From: Streptomyces coryli
GTDB lineage: Bacteria; Actinomycetota; Actinomycetes; Streptomycetales; Streptomycetaceae
Reading direction: 5' to 3'
DNA: 64,000 nt
Assembly: GCF_011044975.1 (NCBI RefSeq)
Contig: NZ_JAAKZV010000013.1
Location: 1-64,000 of the forward strand
The translations under genes were made by a program, and so were the position numbers. The notes beneath the pieces are model-generated. The model was not told where the DNA came from. It searched no databases and saw only the letters and a list, made by a program, of their open reading frames with translations. Each line of letters opens with the position of its first letter. Within the stretch, counting starts at the first letter, position 1. Shown in pieces: positions 54,410-63,788 of this stretch.

Positions 54410-55297
54410 TCAGCGCGCCGCGGCGGGCTGCTTGATGCTCTCGTAGATACGGGCGAAGCCTTCCGCGCCGTGTCCGGCGTCGATCTGCCGCTGGATCAGC
54501 CGCTGCACCATGGCCACCGCCTCGGTGCCGATGCCCTGCCCGGCGCTGGCCGCCAACATGTCGTCGAGGCTGGAGAATTCGAGGCTCTGCTGCCCCGGCA
54601 CGGTGTAGTCACCGCCGTCGACGACCTCGGCGAATCCGGCGAACGCGCCGGTCATGGCGGTCAGCCACGGCGCGGCCCGCCGCGCGAATTCCCCGGCCGT
54701 CACCCCGGCCGGCGCGACCATGGCGGCGCCGTGCAGGAAGCCGGCGAACATGACGTACATGCCGGCGAGCAGCGCCAGGTCGTACAGCGAAGCCAGCCCC
54801 GCGTCCTCGCCGAAATAGGTGCTCTCGCCCCACAGGTCGAGCAGCGGCCGGCTGCGCTCGAAGACGTCGGCGGACCCGCTGTAGAGGATCGAGGACCCCG
54901 GCTGCCCGATCATCTCCGGTACGGCCATGATGCCGCCGTCCAGATACGCGACGCCCTCCCGGGCGGCCCACTCGGCCAGCTCCCGCGAGTGCTCCGGCTG
55001 GGTGGTGGTGACGTTGATCAGGGTCCGCCCGGCCAACTCACCGGCGACCGGGTCGAGTACGTCATGGACCGAGTCGTGATCGAGCAGGCAGACGACGATC
55101 ACGTCGCTGGCCCGGACCGCGCCGTACGGGGTGGACGCCGCCGAGGCGCCCTCCGCAACGAGGCTCTGCGCCTTGCTTGCCGAGCGGTTCCACACGGTCG
55201 TCGGATGCCCGGCCTTCACCAGAGCGCGGGCGAGCGCGGCGCCCATGGCGCCGAGGCCCAGGACCGTAACAGCGGTGTTGTGGGAAGAAGTAGTCAT
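54410..55297 (-). CDS. NADPH-dependent imine reductase-like dehydrogenase
   Basis: A 295-residue beta-hydroxyacid dehydrogenase-fold protein. The N-terminal cofactor motif is VTVLGLGAMGAALARALVKA followed by VWNRSASKA (Arg/Ser for NADPH). The long interdomain helix and helical C-terminal domain, with YDLALLAGMYVMFAGFLHGA, match the imine reductase/reductive aminase family rather than classical hydroxyisobutyrate dehydrogenases. The Asp of YDLALL lies where many imine reductases have their proton donor. The natural substrate is unknown. A palindromic operator-like site is upstream. Confidence 0.85.
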   Translation of the reverse strand: MTTSSHNTAVTVLGLGAMGAALARALVKAGHPTTVWNRSASKAQSLVAEGASAASTPYGAVRASDVIVVCLLDHDSVHDVLDPVAGELAGRTLINVTTTQPEHSRELAEWAAREGVAYLDGGIMAVPEMIGQPGSSILYSGSADVFERSRPLLDLWGESTYFGEDAGLASLYDLALLAGMYVMFAGFLHGAAMVAPAGVTAGEFARRAAPWLTAMTGAFAGFAEVVDGGDYTVPGQQSLEFSSLDDMLAASAGQGIGTEAVAMVQRLIQRQIDAGHGAEGFARIYESIKQPAAAR

Positions 55298-55330
55298 GCG
55301 TCGATCTTCCGCACCACCGCCGAAGGCAAC

Positions 55331-55357
55331 AAGTACGGACTAATTAGTGGGGTACTT
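55331..55357. promoter_or_regulatory. Operator-like inverted repeat upstream of the imine reductase gene
   Basis: AAGTAC (55331-55336) and GTACTT (55352-55357) enclose a perfect ACTAATTAGT (55339-55348). The form is like HxlR-family sites. It is AT-rich and 34-60 bp upstream of the start codon, so it would overlap the promoter. No HxlR gene is in the window. Confidence 0.55.
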
Positions 55358-55373
55358 GCCGTCTGGTAAGCGG

Positions 55374-56285
55374 CTAGCCGGCGGCCGGCGCCTGCCTGCC
55401 GCTCTCCACCGCGCCCGGGAAGCTCAGCGTCCGGTACACCGACACGCTCCCCGCCAGCTCAGCGCACGCCTGCGCCGCCGCGGCCGCCCGCGCCGCGTGA
55501 TCCGGGTCCGCCGTGTCCAGCAGCAGCCCGAGCGTCGTCCCGCTGTGCCCCACTGCGACTCCGAGCCCGCCCACCTCGCGGCAGACGGCGCGCAGTTGCG
55601 CCAGTGAGCGCTTCGGCCGCAGCACCTGGTTCATCAGCGCGCTCTGCGTCGCCACCGCCCCGACCTCGGCCAGGTCACCCCGCAGTACGGCCACGGTGAG
55701 CCGCTCCAGCAGCCGCGCATACGTCTCCCGGTCCCGCGAACCGAACGGCTTCGGCTGCCGGTTGAAGGCGACCGTGTCCACCGTCCCGCCCTCGTCCACG
55801 CCGACCACGGTCATCGTGGGCAGCGCCCCGAGCACCGACCGCAGCCGCACGCTGCGGTGGTGATACGCCACCACGGCCGGGTAGAGCACCCCGTCGGTCG
55901 GCTCGATCCGGGCCAGATAGCGCTCGATCCGGCGCGCGGACAGCCGCAGCCCGAGCCCGCCGCCGACCGCCCGTGCCGTCGCCACCAGATCCGCCGACGA
56001 GCTCGCCAGCCCCTTCCCCTCCGGAATCACCGAATCCACGGTCAGCAGCCCACCGCCCGTGAAGCCCGCGTCGGCCGCGATCATCCGGGCCAGCCGCAGC
56101 GCCTTCGTCTTGCGCGCCGGCCGCACCACGAGCTCCGCCGTGTCCGGTTCCGCACGAAACGCGGCCATCGTCCACCGCGCCACCGGCAGGGTCACGAGGA
56201 AGTCCCCGTCCTCCTCCGGCAGCACGCCCTGCAGCAGCTCGCCGAAGGTCCCGAACGCCGTCCCCAGCCCCAGCCTCATCTCCAT
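55374..56285 (-). CDS. GHMP kinase, PduX/L-threonine kinase-like
   Basis: A 303-residue GHMP kinase. The N-terminal block GLGTAFGTFGELLQG then DFLVTLPVARW matches PduX-type amino-acid kinases (GxxGELxQG, FLVTLP). The ATP loop is PEGKGLASSSADLVATA, and IEPTDGVLYP follows as in that group. The C-terminal GVAVGHSGTTLGLLLD supplies the last GHMP motif. ATG 56285 has AAGGTG upstream. It is divergent from the SbnA-like operon across 66 bp holding a Zur/Fur-type box, so I infer that it makes an O-phospho-amino acid for that pathway; it could instead serve cobamide synthesis, but no cob genes are near. Confidence 0.82.
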   Translation of the reverse strand: MEMRLGLGTAFGTFGELLQGVLPEEDGDFLVTLPVARWTMAAFRAEPDTAELVVRPARKTKALRLARMIAADAGFTGGGLLTVDSVIPEGKGLASSSADLVATARAVGGGLGLRLSARRIERYLARIEPTDGVLYPAVVAYHHRSVRLRSVLGALPTMTVVGVDEGGTVDTVAFNRQPKPFGSRDRETYARLLERLTVAVLRGDLAEVGAVATQSALMNQVLRPKRSLAQLRAVCREVGGLGVAVGHSGTTLGLLLDTADPDHAARAAAAAQACAELAGSVSVYRTLSFPGAVESGRQAPAAG

Positions 56286-56314
56286 GCCGAGCACCTTACG
56301 CACCCGAGATGCAG

Positions 56315-56343
56315 TTGACAATCATTTCCAATAGAGACAGTAT
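56315..56343 (+). promoter_or_regulatory. Zur/Fur-type box overlapping the -35 of the metallophore operon
   Basis: TGACAAT-C-ATTTCCA (56316-56330) has the 7-1-7 form of Streptomyces Zur boxes; with the flanking T and A, 6 of 8 pairs are complementary. TTGACA (56315-56320) is a perfect -35 inside the box, and 17 bp on, CAGTAT (56338-56343) is a fair -10. ATG 56352 lies only 8 bp further and has no ribosome site, so the mRNA may be leaderless. The box is also placed to control the divergent kinase gene. Confidence 0.6.
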
Positions 56344-56351
56344 CCCGGCCC

Positions 56352-57356
56352 ATGGGGTTGCACGAACACATAGCCGAGGCCGTCAAGAGCCCGGATCTCA
56401 TAGCCGTCGGGCCGCGCACGGCCTGTCTGCGCTTCGAGTCGATGAAGATCTACTCCGCGCTCGGCGCGGTCCGGTATCTGCTGGAGACGGGGGAGGTGGC
56501 GCCGGGGGACACGGTCATCGACAGCTCCAGCGGCATCTACGCGCAGGCTCTCGCCCTCGCCTGCCACCGCTACGGCCTGAAGTGCCACATCGTCGGCTCC
56601 ACGACGGTCGACCGCACGCTGCGCCTCCAACTGGAGCTGCTCGGCGCCACCTTGGAGCAGGTCGAGCCGTCGCAGAACCTGCGCCTCGACCAGGAGCTGC
56701 GGGTCCGGCGGATACGCGAGATCCTCGCCGCCAATCCGGCGTATCACTGGATGCGGCAGTACCACGACGCGATCCACTACTACGGCTACCGCGAGGTCGC
56801 CGAGCACATCGGAAAGCACCTGCCCACCGGGCCGCTGACGCTCATCGGCGGCGTCGGCTCGGGCGCGTCCACCGGGGCGCTCGCCACCTACCTGCGGGCG
56901 GCGGGACGGGATGTCCGGCTCGCGGGGGTGCAGCCCTTCGGCAGCGTGACGTTCGGGAGCGAGCGGGTCACCGACCCGGACATGATCATCGCAGGGATCG
57001 GCAGCGCGATCCCGTTCGAGAACGTCCGGCACGGCCTCTACGACCGCGTGCACTGGATCAACTTCGACACCGCCCTGAGCGGCGCGGTCGCGCTGCTGCG
57101 CGACACCGGCATCTTCGCGGGCCTCTCCAGCGGCGCGGCCTACCTCGCCGCCGGTTACGAGCGCCGGCACGACCTCGACCACAGGACGCACCTCTTCATC
57201 GCCCCCGACACCGGCCACCGCTACGTCGAGGGCGTCTACGCCCGGCACACCGACGCCGCGGACCCCGCCTCCCTCGCCCCATACGAAATCGCCGCGCTGG
57301 ACGAGCTGCGGTCCCCCTGGTGCGCCATCGACTGGCCGCCCCGCGAACGACCCTGA
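56352..57356 (+). CDS. SbnA-like PLP-dependent cysteine-synthase-family enzyme
   Basis: A 334-residue fold-type II PLP enzyme. Lys32 in FESMKIYSALG is the probable Schiff-base lysine. VIDSSSGIYAQALALACHRYG matches the asparagine/substrate loop, GGVGSGASTGALATYL the phosphate-binding loop, and GIFAGLSSGAAYLAA plus APDTGHRYVEGVY the C-terminal hallmarks. The overall pattern is closest to SbnA, which joins O-phosphoserine to glutamate in staphyloferrin B synthesis. The lysine segment is shortened compared with SbnA and true cysteine synthases. It is the first gene of a six-gene operon. Confidence 0.85.
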   Translation: MGLHEHIAEAVKSPDLIAVGPRTACLRFESMKIYSALGAVRYLLETGEVAPGDTVIDSSSGIYAQALALACHRYGLKCHIVGSTTVDRTLRLQLELLGATLEQVEPSQNLRLDQELRVRRIREILAANPAYHWMRQYHDAIHYYGYREVAEHIGKHLPTGPLTLIGGVGSGASTGALATYLRAAGRDVRLAGVQPFGSVTFGSERVTDPDMIIAGIGSAIPFENVRHGLYDRVHWINFDTALSGAVALLRDTGIFAGLSSGAAYLAAGYERRHDLDHRTHLFIAPDTGHRYVEGVYARHTDAADPASLAPYEIAALDELRSPWCAIDWPPRERP

Positions 57357-57384
57357 TCAGCAACGGAACACGAAAGAAGCCGAG

Positions 57385-58197
57385 ATGACCCTCCCGACGC
57401 CGCGCAACGTGGCGGAACTGACCGATGCCGTGCTCGCCGGCGGCTACGGCCCCGCGCCGGGCGAGCTGACCGTCACCAGCACCTTCTGGCTGCACCACAC
57501 CACCCGGCTGGCCGGCGGCCCGGTGACGTACCACAACCACTATCTGCTGATGCGCCTCGGCGCCGCCTTCGGTGCCTGCGCCTTCGAGGCGGGGGAGGTG
57601 CCGCCGGCGGTGTGTGCCGAGGGCTCCGGAGTCGGCATCGACAAGCTGCTGCGGCACGAGTCGGCGCCGGTGCGGATCGCGGCGCTGGACGCCTATCTCG
57701 CTCACGTCCGCCCGCACCGCGGCAGCGCGGAGGCCGTCCCGCTGCCCGCCGGGACGCCGGAGATACGGGCCCGGGCCCGGGACGCGGCCATCGCCGGACT
57801 GCTCGACGTCGCACCCGGCGCGAAGGTGGTGCTGATCGGCGTCGTCAATCCGCTGGTCGCCGCGATACGGCAGCGCGGTGCCGAGTGCCTGCCGTGCGAC
57901 CTCAACCTCCGCGCCACCCAGTGGGGGGACGTCGTCACCGACGACATGACCGACGTGCTCGCGCGCGCCGACGCCGTCGTCGCCACCGGCATGACGCTCG
58001 GGAACGGCACCTTCGATCTGATCCTCGAGAGCTGCCGGCAGCGCGGCGTGCCCTTCATCGTCTACGCGCAGAGCGGCAGCGCCGTCGCACGGGCCTTTCT
58101 CGGGGCGGGAGTTACCGCGCTGAGCGCGGAGCCGTTCCCGTTCTCGCAGTTCAGCGCCGAGCCGACCGACCTCTTCCGGTACCGGGAGGGGGCGTGA
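57385..58197 (+). CDS. DUF364-type Rossmann protein (putative heavy-metal chelation family)
   Basis: A 270-residue protein. The N-terminal part (TYHNHYLLMRLGAAFGACAF, EGSGVGIDKLLRHESAPVRI) and the C-terminal Rossmann-like half (GAKVVLIGVVNPLVAAIRQR, DLNLRATQWGD, VVATGMTLGNGTFDLILESC) match the DUF4213/DUF364 plan. The family is annotated as putative heavy-metal chelation from a structure and has no defined reaction. It lies 28 bp after the PLP gene, and its stop overlaps the MFS start (GTGA). A tailoring or modifying step in metallophore assembly is my inference. Confidence 0.78.
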   Translation: MTLPTPRNVAELTDAVLAGGYGPAPGELTVTSTFWLHHTTRLAGGPVTYHNHYLLMRLGAAFGACAFEAGEVPPAVCAEGSGVGIDKLLRHESAPVRIAALDAYLAHVRPHRGSAEAVPLPAGTPEIRARARDAAIAGLLDVAPGAKVVLIGVVNPLVAAIRQRGAECLPCDLNLRATQWGDVVTDDMTDVLARADAVVATGMTLGNGTFDLILESCRQRGVPFIVYAQSGSAVARAFLGAGVTALSAEPFPFSQFSAEPTDLFRYREGA

Positions 58198-59417
58198 GCC
58201 AGACCAAGGCGCGGGCGGAGGCGCTGCCCGGGGACCTGCGCATGATGCGTGAACTGTGGCCGCTGCTCCTCGCGTCGGCGGTCGGCCTGGTGCCGTTCAC
58301 GATCTTCAGTACGTATCTGGTGCCGATCGCCCGCGCGGCGGACACCGGCGTTGCCGCCATGGGCGGGCTGCGCGGGCTCGGCGGGCTCGCCGCGCTCGCC
58401 GTCGGCACCGCGCTGGCGCCGCTGATCGACCGGGTGCCGCGGCGGTGGGCCGCGGCCGGCGGGCTGGCCGTGCTGGCCGCTGCGGCCGGGCTCGGGGCGA
58501 GCGGTGACTACGTGCTGCTCGCCGCCTTCTGCCTGCTGACCGGCGCCGGCACTGCCGTGCTCAACCCGGCGCTCACCGCGGCCGCCGCGGACCGGTACGG
58601 GGAGGGCAAGGCGGCCGGTCGGGCGGCGACGCTGGTCACCGCGACGCAGTCGATGACCGCGATGCTCGCCGCGCCGGTGATCGCGCTGCCCGCGCTGGTG
58701 TGGGGCTGGCGCGGGGACATGGTCGCCGTCGCGCTGGTCGCGCTGCTGCTGGCCGCCGTGCTCGTCGCACCGGGCCGCGGGCCCGAGGCCGGGCCGGGGG
58801 AGCGGGTCGGCTATCTGGCGTCCTTCAAGGCCCTCGCCGCCCTGCGCGGCGTGCCGGAGCTGCTGCTCATCGCCTTCCTGCGGACCGCCGTCTTCATGGG
58901 CTATCTCGCCTATCTCGCCGCCTACTACGACGACCGCTTCGGCCTCGGCCCCGGCATGTTCTCCCTGGTGTGGACGCTCAGCGGCGCCTCCTTCTTCGTC
59001 AGCAACCTGCTCACCGGGCGGCTCGCCAACGCGGACGCGCCGCGGCTGCCGACGGAACGGCTGCTGGCCGCCGGGCTGTTGGGCGCGCTGGTCACCGCCA
59101 CCGGATTCTGGTTCACACACTGGCTGCCGCTCGCGCTGCTCTTCACCTCCCTGCACGCGGCGAGTCACGCCGTGGTGGCCGCATGCGTGGTCACGCTGCT
59201 GGTGCGGCGCAGCGGGGCGCGGCGCGGGGCGGCGCTCAGCGTCAACGCCGCCGGGATGAGCCTCGGCGTCTTCGCAGGTGCCGCGGCGGGTGGCGCGGGC
59301 CTCGGCCTGGCCGGATACCCGGGCGTGGCGGTGGTGTTCGGGGGCATGGTCGCGGTGGCGCTGGGGGCGGCGGCCCTAGTGCTTCGGCGGTCTTCGGCCG
59401 AGGCGGCGGGCTCGTGA
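58194..59417 (+). CDS. MFS transporter, probable metallophore exporter
   Basis: A 407-residue, twelve-helix major facilitator from GTG 58194, overlapping the previous stop (GTGA). Helices begin at LWPLLLASAVGLVPFTIFST; a central loop around residue 200 (GRGPEAGPGERVGYL) separates the halves. Its place between biosynthetic and import genes is that of a small-molecule exporter in siderophore operons. Its stop overlaps the FecCD start. Confidence 0.85.
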   Translation: MSQTKARAEALPGDLRMMRELWPLLLASAVGLVPFTIFSTYLVPIARAADTGVAAMGGLRGLGGLAALAVGTALAPLIDRVPRRWAAAGGLAVLAAAAGLGASGDYVLLAAFCLLTGAGTAVLNPALTAAAADRYGEGKAAGRAATLVTATQSMTAMLAAPVIALPALVWGWRGDMVAVALVALLLAAVLVAPGRGPEAGPGERVGYLASFKALAALRGVPELLLIAFLRTAVFMGYLAYLAAYYDDRFGLGPGMFSLVWTLSGASFFVSNLLTGRLANADAPRLPTERLLAAGLLGALVTATGFWFTHWLPLALLFTSLHAASHAVVAACVVTLLVRRSGARRGAALSVNAAGMSLGVFAGAAAGGAGLGLAGYPGVAVVFGGMVAVALGAAALVLRRSSAEAAGS

Positions 59418-60496
59418 CGGCCGTAGTCGACGCCGCCGAGGTGGCGGAGAGCCGGGCCCCGTCCCGTACGAGCAGCGCCGTCGTCTGCGGCGTGCTCGCG
59501 GTCGCGCTGGTCGTCTCCACGGTCGTCGCCATCGGGCTCGGCAGCGCGGTCGTCGCGCCGGACGACACCGCGCGCTATCTGTGGGCCGCGCTGAGCGGTG
59601 GGCAGATCGCGGGCAGCGAGGTGACGACGTATCAGATCATCTGGGAGATACGGACGCCGCGGGTGCTGCTTGCCGCGCTGGTCGGGGCCGGGCTGAGCGC
59701 GGTCGGGGTCGCGGTGCAGGCGATGGTGCGCAATGCGCTGGCGGATCCGTTCGTGCTCGGGATCTCGTCCGGGGCCTCGGTCGGGGCGGTGGCCGTCACC
59801 GTGACCGGGGGGCTGGCGGCGTTCGGGATCTACGCGGTCTCGGCGGGCGCCTTCCTCGGTGCGCTCGCGGCGGCGGTGCTCGTGTACGCCGCGGCGTCCG
59901 GCGGGGGCGGGATGTCGCCGCTGCGGCTGGTGCTGACCGGGGTCGCCATGTCGCTCGGCTTTCAGGCGCTGATGAGCGTCATCGTGTATCTGGTGCCGGA
60001 CGGCGAGGCCACCAGCACCGTCCTGTACTGGACCATGGGCGGCTTCGGCGCGGCTACGTGGGGCGCGCTGCCCGTCGTCGCCGCCGCCGTGGTGCTCGGC
60101 ACCGCGCTGCTGCTTCGGCAGAGCCGCACCCTCGACGTGCTCGCCCTCGGCGACGAGACCGCCGCCAGCCTCGGCATCGGGGCCGACCGGCAGCGCAAGC
60201 TGCTGCTCCTGCTCGCCTCGCTGGTGACCGGCGTGATGGTCGCCGTCAGCGGCGCCATCGGCTTCGTCGGCCTGGTCATGCCGCACCTGGTGCGGATGGT
60301 GGTCGGGGCCGTGCACGCGCGGGTGCTGGCCGTCGCGCCGCTCGCCGGGGCCGTGTTCATGGTGTGGGCGGACCTTGCCGCGCGGACGGTCGTCAGCCCG
60401 CGGGAGCTCCCGCTCGGCGTGATCACCGCGCTTGTCGGCGTGCCCGTCTTCCTCTCGCTGATGCGGCGGCGGGCCTATCTCTTCGGAGGTCGCTGA
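59414..60496 (+). CDS. FecCD/BtuC-type ABC permease
   Basis: A 360-residue, about ten-helix permease of the metal-chelate (siderophore/cobalamin/haem) importer class. WEIRTPRVLLAALVGAGLSA, QAMVRNALADPFVLGISSGA and GAIGFVGLVMPHLVRMVVGA are the class hallmarks. GTG 59414 overlaps the MFS stop. Only one permease gene is present, so the pore is probably a homodimer. It works with the ATPase and lipoprotein that follow. Confidence 0.93.
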   Translation: MTAVVDAAEVAESRAPSRTSSAVVCGVLAVALVVSTVVAIGLGSAVVAPDDTARYLWAALSGGQIAGSEVTTYQIIWEIRTPRVLLAALVGAGLSAVGVAVQAMVRNALADPFVLGISSGASVGAVAVTVTGGLAAFGIYAVSAGAFLGALAAAVLVYAAASGGGGMSPLRLVLTGVAMSLGFQALMSVIVYLVPDGEATSTVLYWTMGGFGAATWGALPVVAAAVVLGTALLLRQSRTLDVLALGDETAASLGIGADRQRKLLLLLASLVTGVMVAVSGAIGFVGLVMPHLVRMVVGAVHARVLAVAPLAGAVFMVWADLAARTVVSPRELPLGVITALVGVPVFLSLMRRRAYLFGGR

Positions 60497-61293
60497 TGGA
60501 TCTGACCCTCGATCAGCTCAGCGTCGTCACCGACGGCCGGGCGCTCGTCCGGGACCTGTCCCTGCACGTCGGCAGCGGCACCGTGGTCGGCCTCGTCGGG
60601 CCCAACGGCAGTGGAAAGTCAACAGCGTTGCGCTGCATCTACCGGGCGCTGAAGCCCAGCGCCGGGACCGTACGGGCGGGAGAGGAGGACCTGGTCCGGC
60701 TGCCGCCCCGGCAGGGCGCCCAGCTCGTGGCCGCCCTTGCACAAGACGGCGCCGTGGACCTGGACTTCACCGTCGCGGAGGCCGTCGCCCTCGGCCGCGC
60801 CCCGCATCTGCGCGGCAATCAGGCGCTGTCGGCGCGCGAGCGTGAGCTGTGCGTACGGGCCATGGACCGGCTCGGCATCGGCCACCTCGCCGGGCGCGGC
60901 GTGCTGACCCTCTCCGGCGGCGAGCGGCAGCGGGTGCTGCTCGCCCGCGCGCTCGTCCAGGAGCCGCGAATCCTCGTGCTCGACGAGCCGACGAACCATC
61001 TCGACGTACGCCATCAGGTCGAGCTGCTCTCCCAGCTGCGCGGCAGCGGGCTGACCGTGCTCGTCGTCCTGCACGACCTCAACCTCGCCGCCGGCGCCTG
61101 CGACCGGATCGGCGTGCTCAGCGCCGGCCGCCTGGTGACCGCGGGGACGCCGCAGGAGGTGCTGACGGAGGACCTCGTCGAGGACGTCTTCGGGGTCCGG
61201 CCCACCGTCGTACCGCATCCGAAGTCCGGCGTCCCGCAACTGCTCTATTCGATCCATCCCGACTCAGAGGAAAGCTCTCCATCATGCGCATGA
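60496..61293 (+). CDS. ABC ATPase of the metal-chelate importer
   Basis: A 265-residue FecE/BtuD-type ATPase. Walker A VGPNGSGKST, Q-loop at AALAQDGAVDLDFTVAEAVA, signature LSGGERQRVLLARAL, Walker B ILVLDEPTNHLD and switch His VVLHDLNLAAG. ATG 60496 shares one base with the permease stop (TGATG). Its 3' end overlaps the lipoprotein start by 10 bp. Confidence 0.93.
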   Translation: MDLTLDQLSVVTDGRALVRDLSLHVGSGTVVGLVGPNGSGKSTALRCIYRALKPSAGTVRAGEEDLVRLPPRQGAQLVAALAQDGAVDLDFTVAEAVALGRAPHLRGNQALSARERELCVRAMDRLGIGHLAGRGVLTLSGGERQRVLLARALVQEPRILVLDEPTNHLDVRHQVELLSQLRGSGLTVLVVLHDLNLAAGACDRIGVLSAGRLVTAGTPQEVLTEDLVEDVFGVRPTVVPHPKSGVPQLLYSIHPDSEESSPSCA

Positions 61294-62285
61294 ACCACCT
61301 GGCCGCTCTGTCCGCCGGATCCATCCTCCTCACCGGCTGCGGCGCCGACGTCGCCGGCGACGACGACAAGGCCGCGGCCGAGCGCACCACCGTCAAGCGC
61401 TGCGGCGAGCCCGTGCCGTACACCGTCCCGAAGCGGGCCGTCGCCTACGAGGGCGGCAGCGCCGACAAGCTCTTCAGCCTCGGCCTCACCGAGCACGTGC
61501 ACGGATACGTGATGCCGCCCGCCAACCCGCCGGTCAGCGAGTCGCCTTGGGCCGCGGAGTACAAGAAGGTGAAGAAGCTCAGCGACGACCTGCTGAACAA
61601 GGAGGTGGTCGTCGAGGCCAAGTCCGACCTCGTGGTGGCCGGCTGGAACTCCGGCTTCAGCGACCAGCGCGGCATCACCCCCGCCATCCTCGACAAGCTG
61701 AAGATCCAGAGCTTCATGCACACCGAGAGCTGCTACAACTATCCCGGCCACCCCGAGCGGCACGCGCCCTTCGAGGGGCTCTACACCGACCTCGAGCGGC
61801 TCGGGAAGATCTTCCGGGTCGAAGGTCGCGCGGACAAGGTCGTCGGCGACATGAAGCAGCGGGTTGCGAAGGTGGCGGCGAAGGCGCCCAAGGGCGACCC
61901 CGTCCCGGTCTTCCTCTACGACTCCGGCACCGACAAGCCGTTCACCGCGGGCAGTCAGGTGCCGCCGAACGACATCATCAAGACCGCCGGCGGCAAGAAC
62001 ATCTTCGGCGACCTCGACCAGCGGTGGACCGAGGTCGGCTGGGAGGCCGTCACCAAGGGCCGTCCCGAGGTCATCATCATCCTCGACTACGGCGACCAGC
62101 CGGCGAAGAAGAAGATCGAGTTCCTGAAGAAGTCCCCGCACACCCGCGGGCTGCCGGCCGTCCGCAACGACCGGTTCTTCGTCCTCGACTACAACGAGGG
62201 GATCAGCGGGCCGCGCAACATCGACGGCCTGGAGAAGTTCGCCGCCTACCTGGACCGGGTCAGTCGTCCCGGCGCCACGGGCTGA
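61284..62285 (+). CDS. Metal-chelate-binding lipoprotein (FhuD/BtuF type)
   Basis: A 333-residue class III binding protein with a short lipoprotein signal (AALSAGSILLTGC, lipobox LTGC). PKRAVAYEGGSADKLFSLGL, SDLVVAGWNSGFSDQRG and DIIKTAGGKNIFGDLDQRW are typical of the siderophore/cobalamin-binding fold. Two Cys residues (KRCGEP and ESCYNYPGH) may form a disulfide. ATG 61284 has GAGGAAAG upstream. It is the last gene of the operon begun by the SbnA-like enzyme. Confidence 0.92.
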   Translation: MRMNHLAALSAGSILLTGCGADVAGDDDKAAAERTTVKRCGEPVPYTVPKRAVAYEGGSADKLFSLGLTEHVHGYVMPPANPPVSESPWAAEYKKVKKLSDDLLNKEVVVEAKSDLVVAGWNSGFSDQRGITPAILDKLKIQSFMHTESCYNYPGHPERHAPFEGLYTDLERLGKIFRVEGRADKVVGDMKQRVAKVAAKAPKGDPVPVFLYDSGTDKPFTAGSQVPPNDIIKTAGGKNIFGDLDQRWTEVGWEAVTKGRPEVIIILDYGDQPAKKKIEFLKKSPHTRGLPAVRNDRFFVLDYNEGISGPRNIDGLEKFAAYLDRVSRPGATG

Positions 62286-62657
62286 ACGACGCGGCGGGCG
62301 GCCGACGCCCTGTCGTGATCCACGGGACGTCCATGACGCGCTCGAAGTGCCGCACGTACTCCCGCATGCTCGGCTGCCCGCCCGCCGCTCGTTCCGCCGC
62401 TCCCGGTCCACTCCGCAACTGCCGTCGCTGCTGAACTGACATCCGCGATCAACCCCTCCGCAACCAAGCCGCGTTGACCCTGCACCACCACAACGAGCCA
62501 CAGAACGCCAGGTTTTACCCGACTGGGCCATACGTGTGAAACGAGGCCAATCACCCATACAAGCCCATGATGGCCCGCCGGGATGCGGGTGATCGTCAGT
62601 CGCTAGCATCGGCCGGCGCGACTCGATCTAGATCACCTGTACGAAGAAACGGATGTC
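62286..62657. other. Intergenic region with a doubtful minus-strand small frame
   Basis: 372 bp between the binding lipoprotein and the HAD gene. A 60-codon minus-strand frame (62442-62260) contains SMREYVRHFERVMDVPWITT, which reads like protein, but it lacks a clear ribosome site and overlaps the lipoprotein gene end. I cannot decide whether it is a small gene or a remnant. No strong terminator hairpin is visible; the last 50 bp should hold the promoter of the next gene. Confidence 0.4.
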
Positions 62658-63788
62658 ATGACGAAACGTGTTAACAGCCGCATATGGGTGCTCGGCGCGG
62701 TGCTCGCCCTCGCCGGGGCGCTGCTCGCCGGTGCGGGCCTCTGGCCGGAGTCCAAGGCGCGGGCGGCCGACGACGCCGACGGCGCCCGGATCGCCGCCGA
62801 GCTGGACCACTGGCCGGCCCCGGTGGCGAAGAAGCTCGGCAAGGTCATCGCCGGGCACGCCGACAGCGGCGGCTACGCGGTCTTCGACGCGGACAACACG
62901 AGCTACCGCTACGACCTCGAGGAATCCCTCATCCCGTACCTGGAGATGAAGGGTGTCCTCACCCGCGAGCGGATGGATCCGTCGCTGAAGGTGATCCCCT
63001 TCAAGGACACCGCGGACCACAAGGAAAGCCTCTACAGCTACTACAACCGGCTGTGCGAGGTCGACGACCAGGTCTGCTACCCGTGGGCCGCGCAGATCTT
63101 CTCCGGCTTCACGCTGAAGCAGCTCAAGGGCTACGTCGACGAGCTGATGGCGTACGGCAAGCCGATCCCGGCCGAGTACTACGACGGCGGCGAGCTGACC
63201 AAGACCGAGGTCAACCCGCCCAAGCCGTACCCGGGCATGCGGGAGCTCTTCGCCTCGCTCCGCAAGCACGGCATCGAGGTCTACATCAACAGCGCGGCGA
63301 GCGAGGAGCTCGTCCGCATGGTGCTCTCCGACCCGAAGTACGGCTACGACGTGAAGCCGCAGAACGTCATCGGCGTCTCCATGCTGCTGAAGGACCGCGA
63401 GAGCGGCGACGTCACGACCGCCCGCAAGGAGATCAAGGCGGGCACGTACGACCCGAAGAAGCTCATGGACCACGAGCTGACCCCGACCCTGTGGGCGCCC
63501 GCCACCTGGTACGAGGGCAAGCCCGCCGCCATCCGCACCTACATCGACCAGTGGAAGCAGGCGGTCCTGGTCGCCGGCGACACGCCCAAGAGCGACGGCC
63601 CGATGCTGCTGGAGTCCACCGACATCAAGAACGGCGGCGCGCGGATCTGGGTCAACCGCAAGGACGACTACCAGACCGAGATCACGGACCTGCGCGAGAA
63701 GGCCGCAGAGCGGCAGCGGGAGCTGGGCCAGCCGGTGACGGCGGACAAGCGGTGGTTTACGGTCGTTCCGGAGCAGATCGGCGGCTGA
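62658..63788 (+). CDS. Secreted HAD-family phosphatase
   Basis: A 376-residue HAD phosphatase with an N-terminal signal or anchor (WVLGAVLALAGALLAGAGLW). Motif I FDADNTSYRYD (nucleophile DxDNT), motif II INSAAS, a conserved Lys region and motif IV VAGDTPKSDGPML. The DxDNT form and the extracytoplasmic location resemble phosphorylcholine phosphatases and secreted phosphoserine phosphatase-like enzymes. It probably scavenges phosphate from organic phosphates outside the membrane. Confidence 0.9.
   Translation: MTKRVNSRIWVLGAVLALAGALLAGAGLWPESKARAADDADGARIAAELDHWPAPVAKKLGKVIAGHADSGGYAVFDADNTSYRYDLEESLIPYLEMKGVLTRERMDPSLKVIPFKDTADHKESLYSYYNRLCEVDDQVCYPWAAQIFSGFTLKQLKGYVDELMAYGKPIPAEYYDGGELTKTEVNPPKPYPGMRELFASLRKHGIEVYINSAASEELVRMVLSDPKYGYDVKPQNVIGVSMLLKDRESGDVTTARKEIKAGTYDPKKLMDHELTPTLWAPATWYEGKPAAIRTYIDQWKQAVLVAGDTPKSDGPMLLESTDIKNGGARIWVNRKDDYQTEITDLREKAAERQRELGQPVTADKRWFTVVPEQIGG

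Follow-up and report, generated by a model that had tools for sequence, protein, structure and literature searches.

The window analyzed here is a 64,000-nucleotide stretch of Streptomyces coryli (contig NZ_JAAKZV010000013.1), and our subject is a set of seven genes at 55374-62285, in which a GHMP-family kinase gene is divergent from an operon encoding a pyridoxal phosphate (PLP) enzyme, a DUF364 protein, a putative MFS exporter and a FecCD-type ABC importer, with a Zur-type box between the two transcripts (Table 1). An initial annotation, made from the sequence alone, had proposed this locus as a kinase-primed metallophore system. Gene calls and Pfam confirmed its seven genes, all at the positions it gave, and their tight overlaps, which measure 4, 4, 1 and 10 bp in order from DUF364 through MFS, FecCD and ATPase to the binding protein; the PLP and DUF364 genes are spaced by 28 bp. 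We took ATG 56285 as the kinase start (alternatives are 56303, from the codon-usage script, and TTG 56321, from the open reading frame list), which leaves a kinase-PLP gap of 66 bp that contains TGACAATCATTTCCA. The Pfam bit scores, each with its cut-off, were 38.6/22.3 and 31.5/21 for the GHMP N- and C-terminal domains of the kinase, 118.9/35 for PALP, 47.8/23 for DUF364 (exceeding the PF04016 gathering cut-off), 90/33.4 for MFS_1, 292.3/26.5 for FecCD, 105/25 for ABC_tran and 86.9/27.5 for Peripla_BP_2. No non-ribosomal peptide synthetase (NRPS), NRPS-independent siderophore (NIS) synthetase or opine dehydrogenase was found among the nine proteins scanned at 54410-63788, as the initial annotation had also stated.

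Table 1. Features of the putative metallophore locus and the evidence for their assignment.
Feature	Position	Strand	Basis
GHMP-family kinase, divergent from the operon, proposed Ser/Thr kinase	55374..56285	-	Pfam; relatives beside PLP enzymes
Zur-type box TGACAATCATTTCCA, between kinase and PLP transcripts	56316..56330	.	Published motif and locus scan
PLP enzyme, fold type II (PALP), proposed beta-replacement enzyme	56352..57356	+	Pfam, tree, catalytic-lysine loop
DUF364 (PF04016) protein, proposed finishing/condensing of PLP product	57385..58197	+	Pfam, profile match, linkage
MFS exporter (proposed)	58194..59417	+	Pfam; conserved in 39/81 loci
FecCD-type ABC permease	59414..60496	+	Profile models
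ABC ATPase	60496..61293	+	Profile models
Chelate-binding lipoprotein (Peripla_BP_2)	61284..62285	+	Profile models; LLTGC lipobox

Searching named genomes with the PLP enzyme as query gave 218 relatives; the best 80 of these and the window make up the 81 loci compared here. Gene calling in these loci used a codon-usage script, and the genes were then grouped by similarity. DUF364 is present in 51 loci, an ATP-grasp ligase without DUF364 in 27, and three are unclassified; counting by tblastn gave 52 loci with DUF364, L018 among them. Type A, the window's own, combines kinase, PLP enzyme, DUF364, MFS and FecCD importer. Type B is composed of an Opp-type importer, a PrmC-like protein, the PLP enzyme, often a PhyH oxygenase, DUF364 and MFS (the Opp-type importer was found in 11 type B loci, and a twelfth locus with it, L079, is of type C). 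Type C comprises kinase (27/27 loci), PLP enzyme, an ATP-grasp protein of the L-amino-acid-ligase kind, MFS and a methyltransferase, joined in many loci by a FecCD importer; DUF364 occurs in none of the 27. Exporter and importer genes are kept alongside the PLP-DUF364 pair across the related loci.

The Zur motif of S. coelicolor obtained by chromatin immunoprecipitation is given as tGaNNatSatNNtCa (PMC5472717). The window box TGACAATCATTTCCA matches this motif at 14 of 15 positions, and the commonest box among the relatives, TGACAATCATTTTCA, at all 15. When the 450 bp ahead of each gene belonging to a cluster family were searched with the 15-bp consensus, allowing at most 3 mismatches, a box was found to precede the cluster in 42 of the 51 DUF364-type loci (window counted), and in 36 with at most 2 mismatches, compared with 4 and 1, respectively, of 255 composition-shuffled controls. 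Only 2 of the 27 ATP-grasp-type loci were counted with a box, both times before an adjoining operon that by eye looks like a zinc ABC transporter. A genome-wide scan of six genomes of relatives with the pattern TGANAATNATTNTCA (at most 1 mismatch) gave 2 to 4 sites per genome, and the reversed pattern, used as control, gave one site in one genome and none in five. Judged by eye, further sites precede a znuA-like gene beside an ABC ATPase in five genomes (L084, L088, L089, L091, L092), one lies between an ABC permease and an ATPase gene (L090) and one, in Amycolatopsis (L093), between ribosomal-protein genes and a CobW-like gene; the L083 site is near an NRPS-like gene, and no neighbor of these kinds was seen at L081 or L094. 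The genes znuABC and yciC and those of ribosomal proteins are listed as Zur targets (PMC6103462). In 13 of the 81 loci the flanking sequence contains a Fur-family gene, assigned by Pfam on one member (L001). The Zur/Fur-type box of the initial annotation is borne out by its motif fit and by its recurrence in the related loci. The window box very probably belongs to Zur, the operon would probably be turned on by zinc shortage, and a Zur-controlled metallophore operon appears highly likely.

The linkage of the PLP enzyme with DUF364 was surveyed in 199 Streptomyces genomes not chosen by locus. The PLP enzyme was found in 66 of them (E ≤1e-60) and DUF364 in 83 (E ≤1e-12), as 86 rows, or 85 places after joining one broken gene. 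At 84 of the 85 places DUF364 lies near a PLP enzyme from the superfamily of the window enzyme, and the pair is present in 82 to 83 of the 199 genomes; in the exception, G086, the two genes are on separate contigs, one PLP match being at a contig end. Close DUF364 homologues (68-77% identity) have a PLP enzyme within 4 kb in 33 of 34 cases. At 5 of these 33 places the PLP gene comes first and is divergent from a kinase of 74-75% identity, as in the window, and at 6 it comes first without a kinase at E 1e-25. The order is DUF364 first at 22, with a kinase (36-41%) in between at 8, a gap of about 1 kb able to hold a kinase at 12 and a short gap at 2; in G048 (L191) the gap of about 1 kb does contain a kinase. 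All 51 distant DUF364 homologues (39-46% identity) have a same-strand PLP enzyme within 300 bp. Five of these distant places (L186-L190; Pfam assignment on L186, L187 ending early) show the order ATP-grasp, DUF364, PLP enzyme, enolase-superfamily enzyme (MR/MLE), MFS, methyltransferase and Opp importer, with a Zur-like box before the ATP-grasp gene in four of the five (2 or 3 mismatches). In the tree, the PLP enzyme of this distant type falls in another lineage than that of the window, so that DUF364 partners two PLP-enzyme lineages. The wide occurrence of the PLP-DUF364 pair is the more surprising of these results.

DUF364 itself is an unexplained family. The first paper on a DUF364 structure, that of Dhaf4260 (PF04016), proposed a role in metal chelation, namely condensation or hydrolysis in the making of a chelator, from the fold and genome context (PMC2954201). 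The window protein belongs to the same family; its profile match to the solved member 3npg is weak (E 3.9e-5) and covers the C-terminal, Rossmann part only, and the constant PLP-enzyme partner distinguishes it here. The family would thereby gain a constant partner and a testable pathway.

The initial annotation had labeled the PLP enzyme SbnA-like, a label that is valid at the superfamily level only. Against the SbnA model TIGR03945 the enzyme scored 135.8 bits, with a cut-off of 349.95, and the loop before the catalytic lysine is short, reading FESMK in the window and FESMK, FGLMK and similar in its lineage, instead of the NPxGSxK of the SbnA type. A tree of 47 proteins, which has several long branches and whose split was unchanged with 55 rows, contains a branch with 100/100 support: on one side are the PLP enzymes of types A, B and C together with those of L096, L097, L098, L101, L141 and L142, and on the other are SbnA, the EDDS-like enzyme discussed below, cystathionine beta-synthase, CysM and the fused PLP enzymes of L099 and L100. 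Score, loop and tree position together rule out that the window enzyme is SbnA. A clade uniting the PLP enzymes of types A, B, C, D and X had p-AU 0.035 in the approximately unbiased test. The loci L096-L101, L141 and L142 are modules of kinase, PLP enzyme and lyase, the lyases of L096, L098 and L142 being of the argininosuccinate-lyase type by Pfam, and on the tree evidence the window PLP enzyme is a member of this module lineage. Modules of this kind, of which friulimicin DabA-C is taken as one, presumably lead to 2,3-diaminobutyrate or diaminopropionate through an aspartate adduct. Six lyase queries run against all 81 loci gave no match at E 1e-3. Two of the modules (L096 8908-13620 and L097 8797-13637) lie on rhizobial symbiosis plasmids and carry kinase, PLP enzyme and an ATP-grasp and lyase fusion, that of L096 near nif genes; these rhizobial modules look like an unexplained small-molecule pathway.

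Kinases of the window family adjoin PLP enzymes in these same eight modules. The window kinase shares 68% identity with the L098 kinase, 52-53% with those of L100 and L099, 40-43% with the rhizobial ones, 33-35% with the kinases of the Nocardiopsis and Amycolatopsis type A loci (here A2) and 29-30% with those of type C. The initial annotation had called it PduX-like; in the comparison with models of named relatives, no PduX model was among the matches and all models were far below cut-off. In clade tests on groups that were named after the first tree had been seen, the kinases of types A and A2 did not hold together as a single clade (cost 115.5 log units, p-AU 2.35e-7), nor did those of the lyase modules (p-AU 1.87e-86), and a second kinase tree placed L098 inside type A. 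Unlike their kinases, the A and A2 PLP enzymes share one clade with types B and C; the kinase therefore seems, from these trees, to have entered this PLP lineage on at least two occasions, and such repeated recruitment favors a working link between kinase and PLP enzyme. Among the 45 of 52 DUF364 loci with enough flank, both kinase and PrmC-like genes were present in 4, the kinase only in 13, the PrmC-like gene only in 20 and neither in 8 (Fisher p 0.0025, relatedness not corrected). An imine-reductase-like gene (RedAm C-terminal domain by Pfam) at 54410-55297 adjoins the window kinase; neither this gene nor that at 62658-63788 had a match of at least 60 bits in the 80 related loci, and they were not counted in the gene set.

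The type C sister clusters appear to respond to a different signal. The words conserved upstream of their kinases correspond to the cobalamin riboswitch RF00174, which was identified upstream of the kinase in all seven Streptomyces type C loci, of the 27, that were given to Rfam (L047, L055, L062, L063, L072, L074, L079), with a second cobalamin riboswitch before the binding-protein gene in five of the seven. A scan for the riboswitch core motif found it in 23 of the 27 type C loci and, at other places, in 4 of 51 DUF364 loci; four Amycolatopsis type C loci have no cobalamin riboswitch. Iron control of the ATP-grasp clusters was rejected: a DmdR/IdeR consensus had at best 8 mismatches upstream of the 27 kinases, and its single occurrence at no more than 5 mismatches, in L076, was 7.3 kb away from the PLP gene. 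The riboswitches suggest a cobalt or B12 role for type C, whose clusters are candidates for making cobalt metallophores. The window, with no RF00174 riboswitch and no ATP-grasp gene in the scanned proteins, is not of type C. The loci L139, L140, L193 and L194 have PLP enzymes 50-55% identical to that of the window beside ATP-grasp and MFS genes, L194 additionally with a kinase and a tetrapyrrole-methylase-like gene, and none of the four has a Zur-like box at up to 3 mismatches.

From these observations we propose the following pathway for the window. Zinc-loaded Zur on the box would repress both transcripts, and zinc shortage would free them. The kinase would convert serine or threonine to its O-phospho form; serine biosynthesis could supply O-phosphoserine, which favors serine over threonine as the substrate. 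The PLP enzyme would then exchange the phosphate for an acidic amino acid attached through its amino group, yielding an N-linked diamino tri-acid. Aspartate is the most likely such amino acid, and the step is suggested by the position of the enzyme among the partners of argininosuccinate-lyase-type lyases. In the related modules the lyase would cleave this adduct to a diamino acid; with no such lyase here, the adduct, in its own right a chelator of the aminopolycarboxylate class, would be retained. DUF364 would finish or condense it and, judging from their families, MFS would export the product and the FecCD system would re-import the metal complex. We consider this use of an uncleaved adduct, finished by DUF364, as a zincophore under Zur repression to be rather likely, and an aspartate-type aminopolycarboxylate as the product about as likely as not. 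That the kinase feeds the PLP enzyme is likely.

Several points weigh against this pathway. The locus counts rest on the best 80 of 218 relatives, and by the scan criterion 9 of the 51 DUF364 loci have no box: in L017, L019 and L078 a box lies before another upstream gene, in L013 and L031 the upstream sequence ends early, and L035, L042, L046 and L080 have none. Moreover, the kinase is found in only 20 of 52 DUF364 loci (a few of which end early), and 20 of the 26 genomes searched, nearly all of them genomes with kinase-less DUF364 loci (that of L011 not included) and two of them Amycolatopsis type C, have no relative of it at E 1e-8, so that priming cannot be essential. The kinase is an aid and not a requirement. 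Of the co-occurrence expected by the initial annotation, the part concerning PLP enzyme, DUF364 and transporters stands and the part concerning the kinase does not; its view that the kinase primes the PLP enzyme stays plausible from the kinases beside PLP enzymes elsewhere, without the kinase being part of the core. Its broader proposal of a biosynthesis, export and import operon free of NRPS and NIS genes is supported by the gene families and the Zur box.

Other readings of the same genes were weighed. DUF364 or a housekeeping lyase might cleave the PLP product to a 2,3-diamino acid that is exported or built into a larger chelator elsewhere, as could be expected from the lyase modules to which the PLP and kinase relatives belong and from the condensation or hydrolysis proposed for DUF364 (PMC2954201). 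The lyase is, however, absent from the 81 loci at E 1e-3, and the operon encodes no ligase, NRPS or NIS enzyme that could take up a diamino acid, in contrast to the ATP-grasp sister type; we regard this outcome as unlikely. Somewhat less probable still is a variant of the pathway to ethylenediamine-disuccinic acid (EDDS) or ethylenediaminesuccinic acid hydroxyarginine (EDHA), in which other enzymes would make a known aminopolycarboxylate. Zur control of a metallophore operon with a PLP enzyme is common to the EDDS system and, as proposed, the window, and EDHA genes are reported in Streptomyces (PMC8914351), but the ornithine-cyclodeaminase-like, decarboxylase and MATE genes of the EDDS-like operon in genome G222 are absent from the window operon, and its PLP enzyme is of another lineage.

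The least probable reading, and a very improbable one, is a service to cobalamin or cobalt, in which the kinase would phosphorylate threonine for the side chain of B12 and the FecCD importer would be of the B12 type. The ATP-grasp sister clusters do carry cobalamin riboswitches, and the window FecCD and ATPase match B12 transport models, although below cut-off. The window instead has a Zur box and no riboswitch, and among seven type A/B loci given to Rfam none has one before the operon, the single cobalamin riboswitch, in L010, preceding a separate FecCD-type operon. A Zur-repressed, DUF364-finished aminopolycarboxylate is the reading that we retain.

More tentatively, a PLP beta-replacement enzyme and DUF364 may form the core of an extensive and as yet undescribed class of metallophore clusters in actinobacteria in which the regulator tells the metal, zinc for Zur-boxed DUF364 clusters and cobalt for the ATP-grasp clusters with cobalamin riboswitches. 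If true, DUF364 would represent a novel type of enzyme for building metallophores, and the pair would offer a common route to small zinc chelators that is invisible to searches for NRPS or NIS genes. The comparison with the lyase modules suggests a diamino-acid pathway turned into a chelator pathway by lacking one enzyme and gaining transporters. In the titles and abstract openings searched, which left subscription papers mostly outside and involved no comparison with a cluster database, no paper joins DUF364 with a metallophore and this system is not described; its novelty is not proven.

Among known systems, staphyloferrin B had been cited by the initial annotation, together with EDDS. There, SbnI is reported to make O-phosphoserine, which SbnA joins with glutamate (PMC7139808). 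The window shares, by proposal, this outline of a serine kinase feeding a PLP enzyme that joins an amino acid, but its PLP enzyme is not of the SbnA family and there is no SbnB-like or NIS gene. The nearest known module is instead that of kinase, PLP enzyme and argininosuccinate-lyase-type lyase, whose GHMP kinases reach 68% identity with the window kinase and whose PLP enzymes lie, in six of eight cases, on the same side of the tree; these modules differ in carrying the lyase that the window lacks and, in most cases, ATP-grasp or NRPS genes. The EDHA cluster of S. scabiei is given as 11 kb, from scab_5231 to 5311 (PMC8914351), and the type C locus L055, with nine genes in about 10 kb, resembles it by size alone. 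EDDS of Amycolatopsis japonicum is described as Zur-controlled and made by a route that is neither NRPS nor NIS (PMC4993170), as would hold for the small aminopolycarboxylate proposed here. Its operon was not found by similarity to the window PLP enzyme or with the SbnA model; a looser Zur-box scan revealed, in G222 (L177 6597-11411), a Zur-like box ahead of genes for an ornithine-cyclodeaminase-like protein, a PLP decarboxylase, an enzyme of the PALP family and a MATE exporter. This is the probable EDDS operon, in a genome that we take to be A. japonica. In the Streptomyces genome that also holds L010, a Zur-like box (L095) lies near a decarboxylase-like gene, with a PLP-enzyme match about 1.6 kb away on the same contig, perhaps another EDDS-like operon. 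The G222 operon and the window each include an exporter, and their PLP enzymes belong to one superfamily, but the former relies on the cyclodeaminase-like protein, decarboxylase and MATE where the window has kinase, DUF364, MFS and an ABC importer of its own, and the two PLP enzymes are on opposite sides of the 100/100 branch. The window operon shares the logic of EDDS, not its parts.

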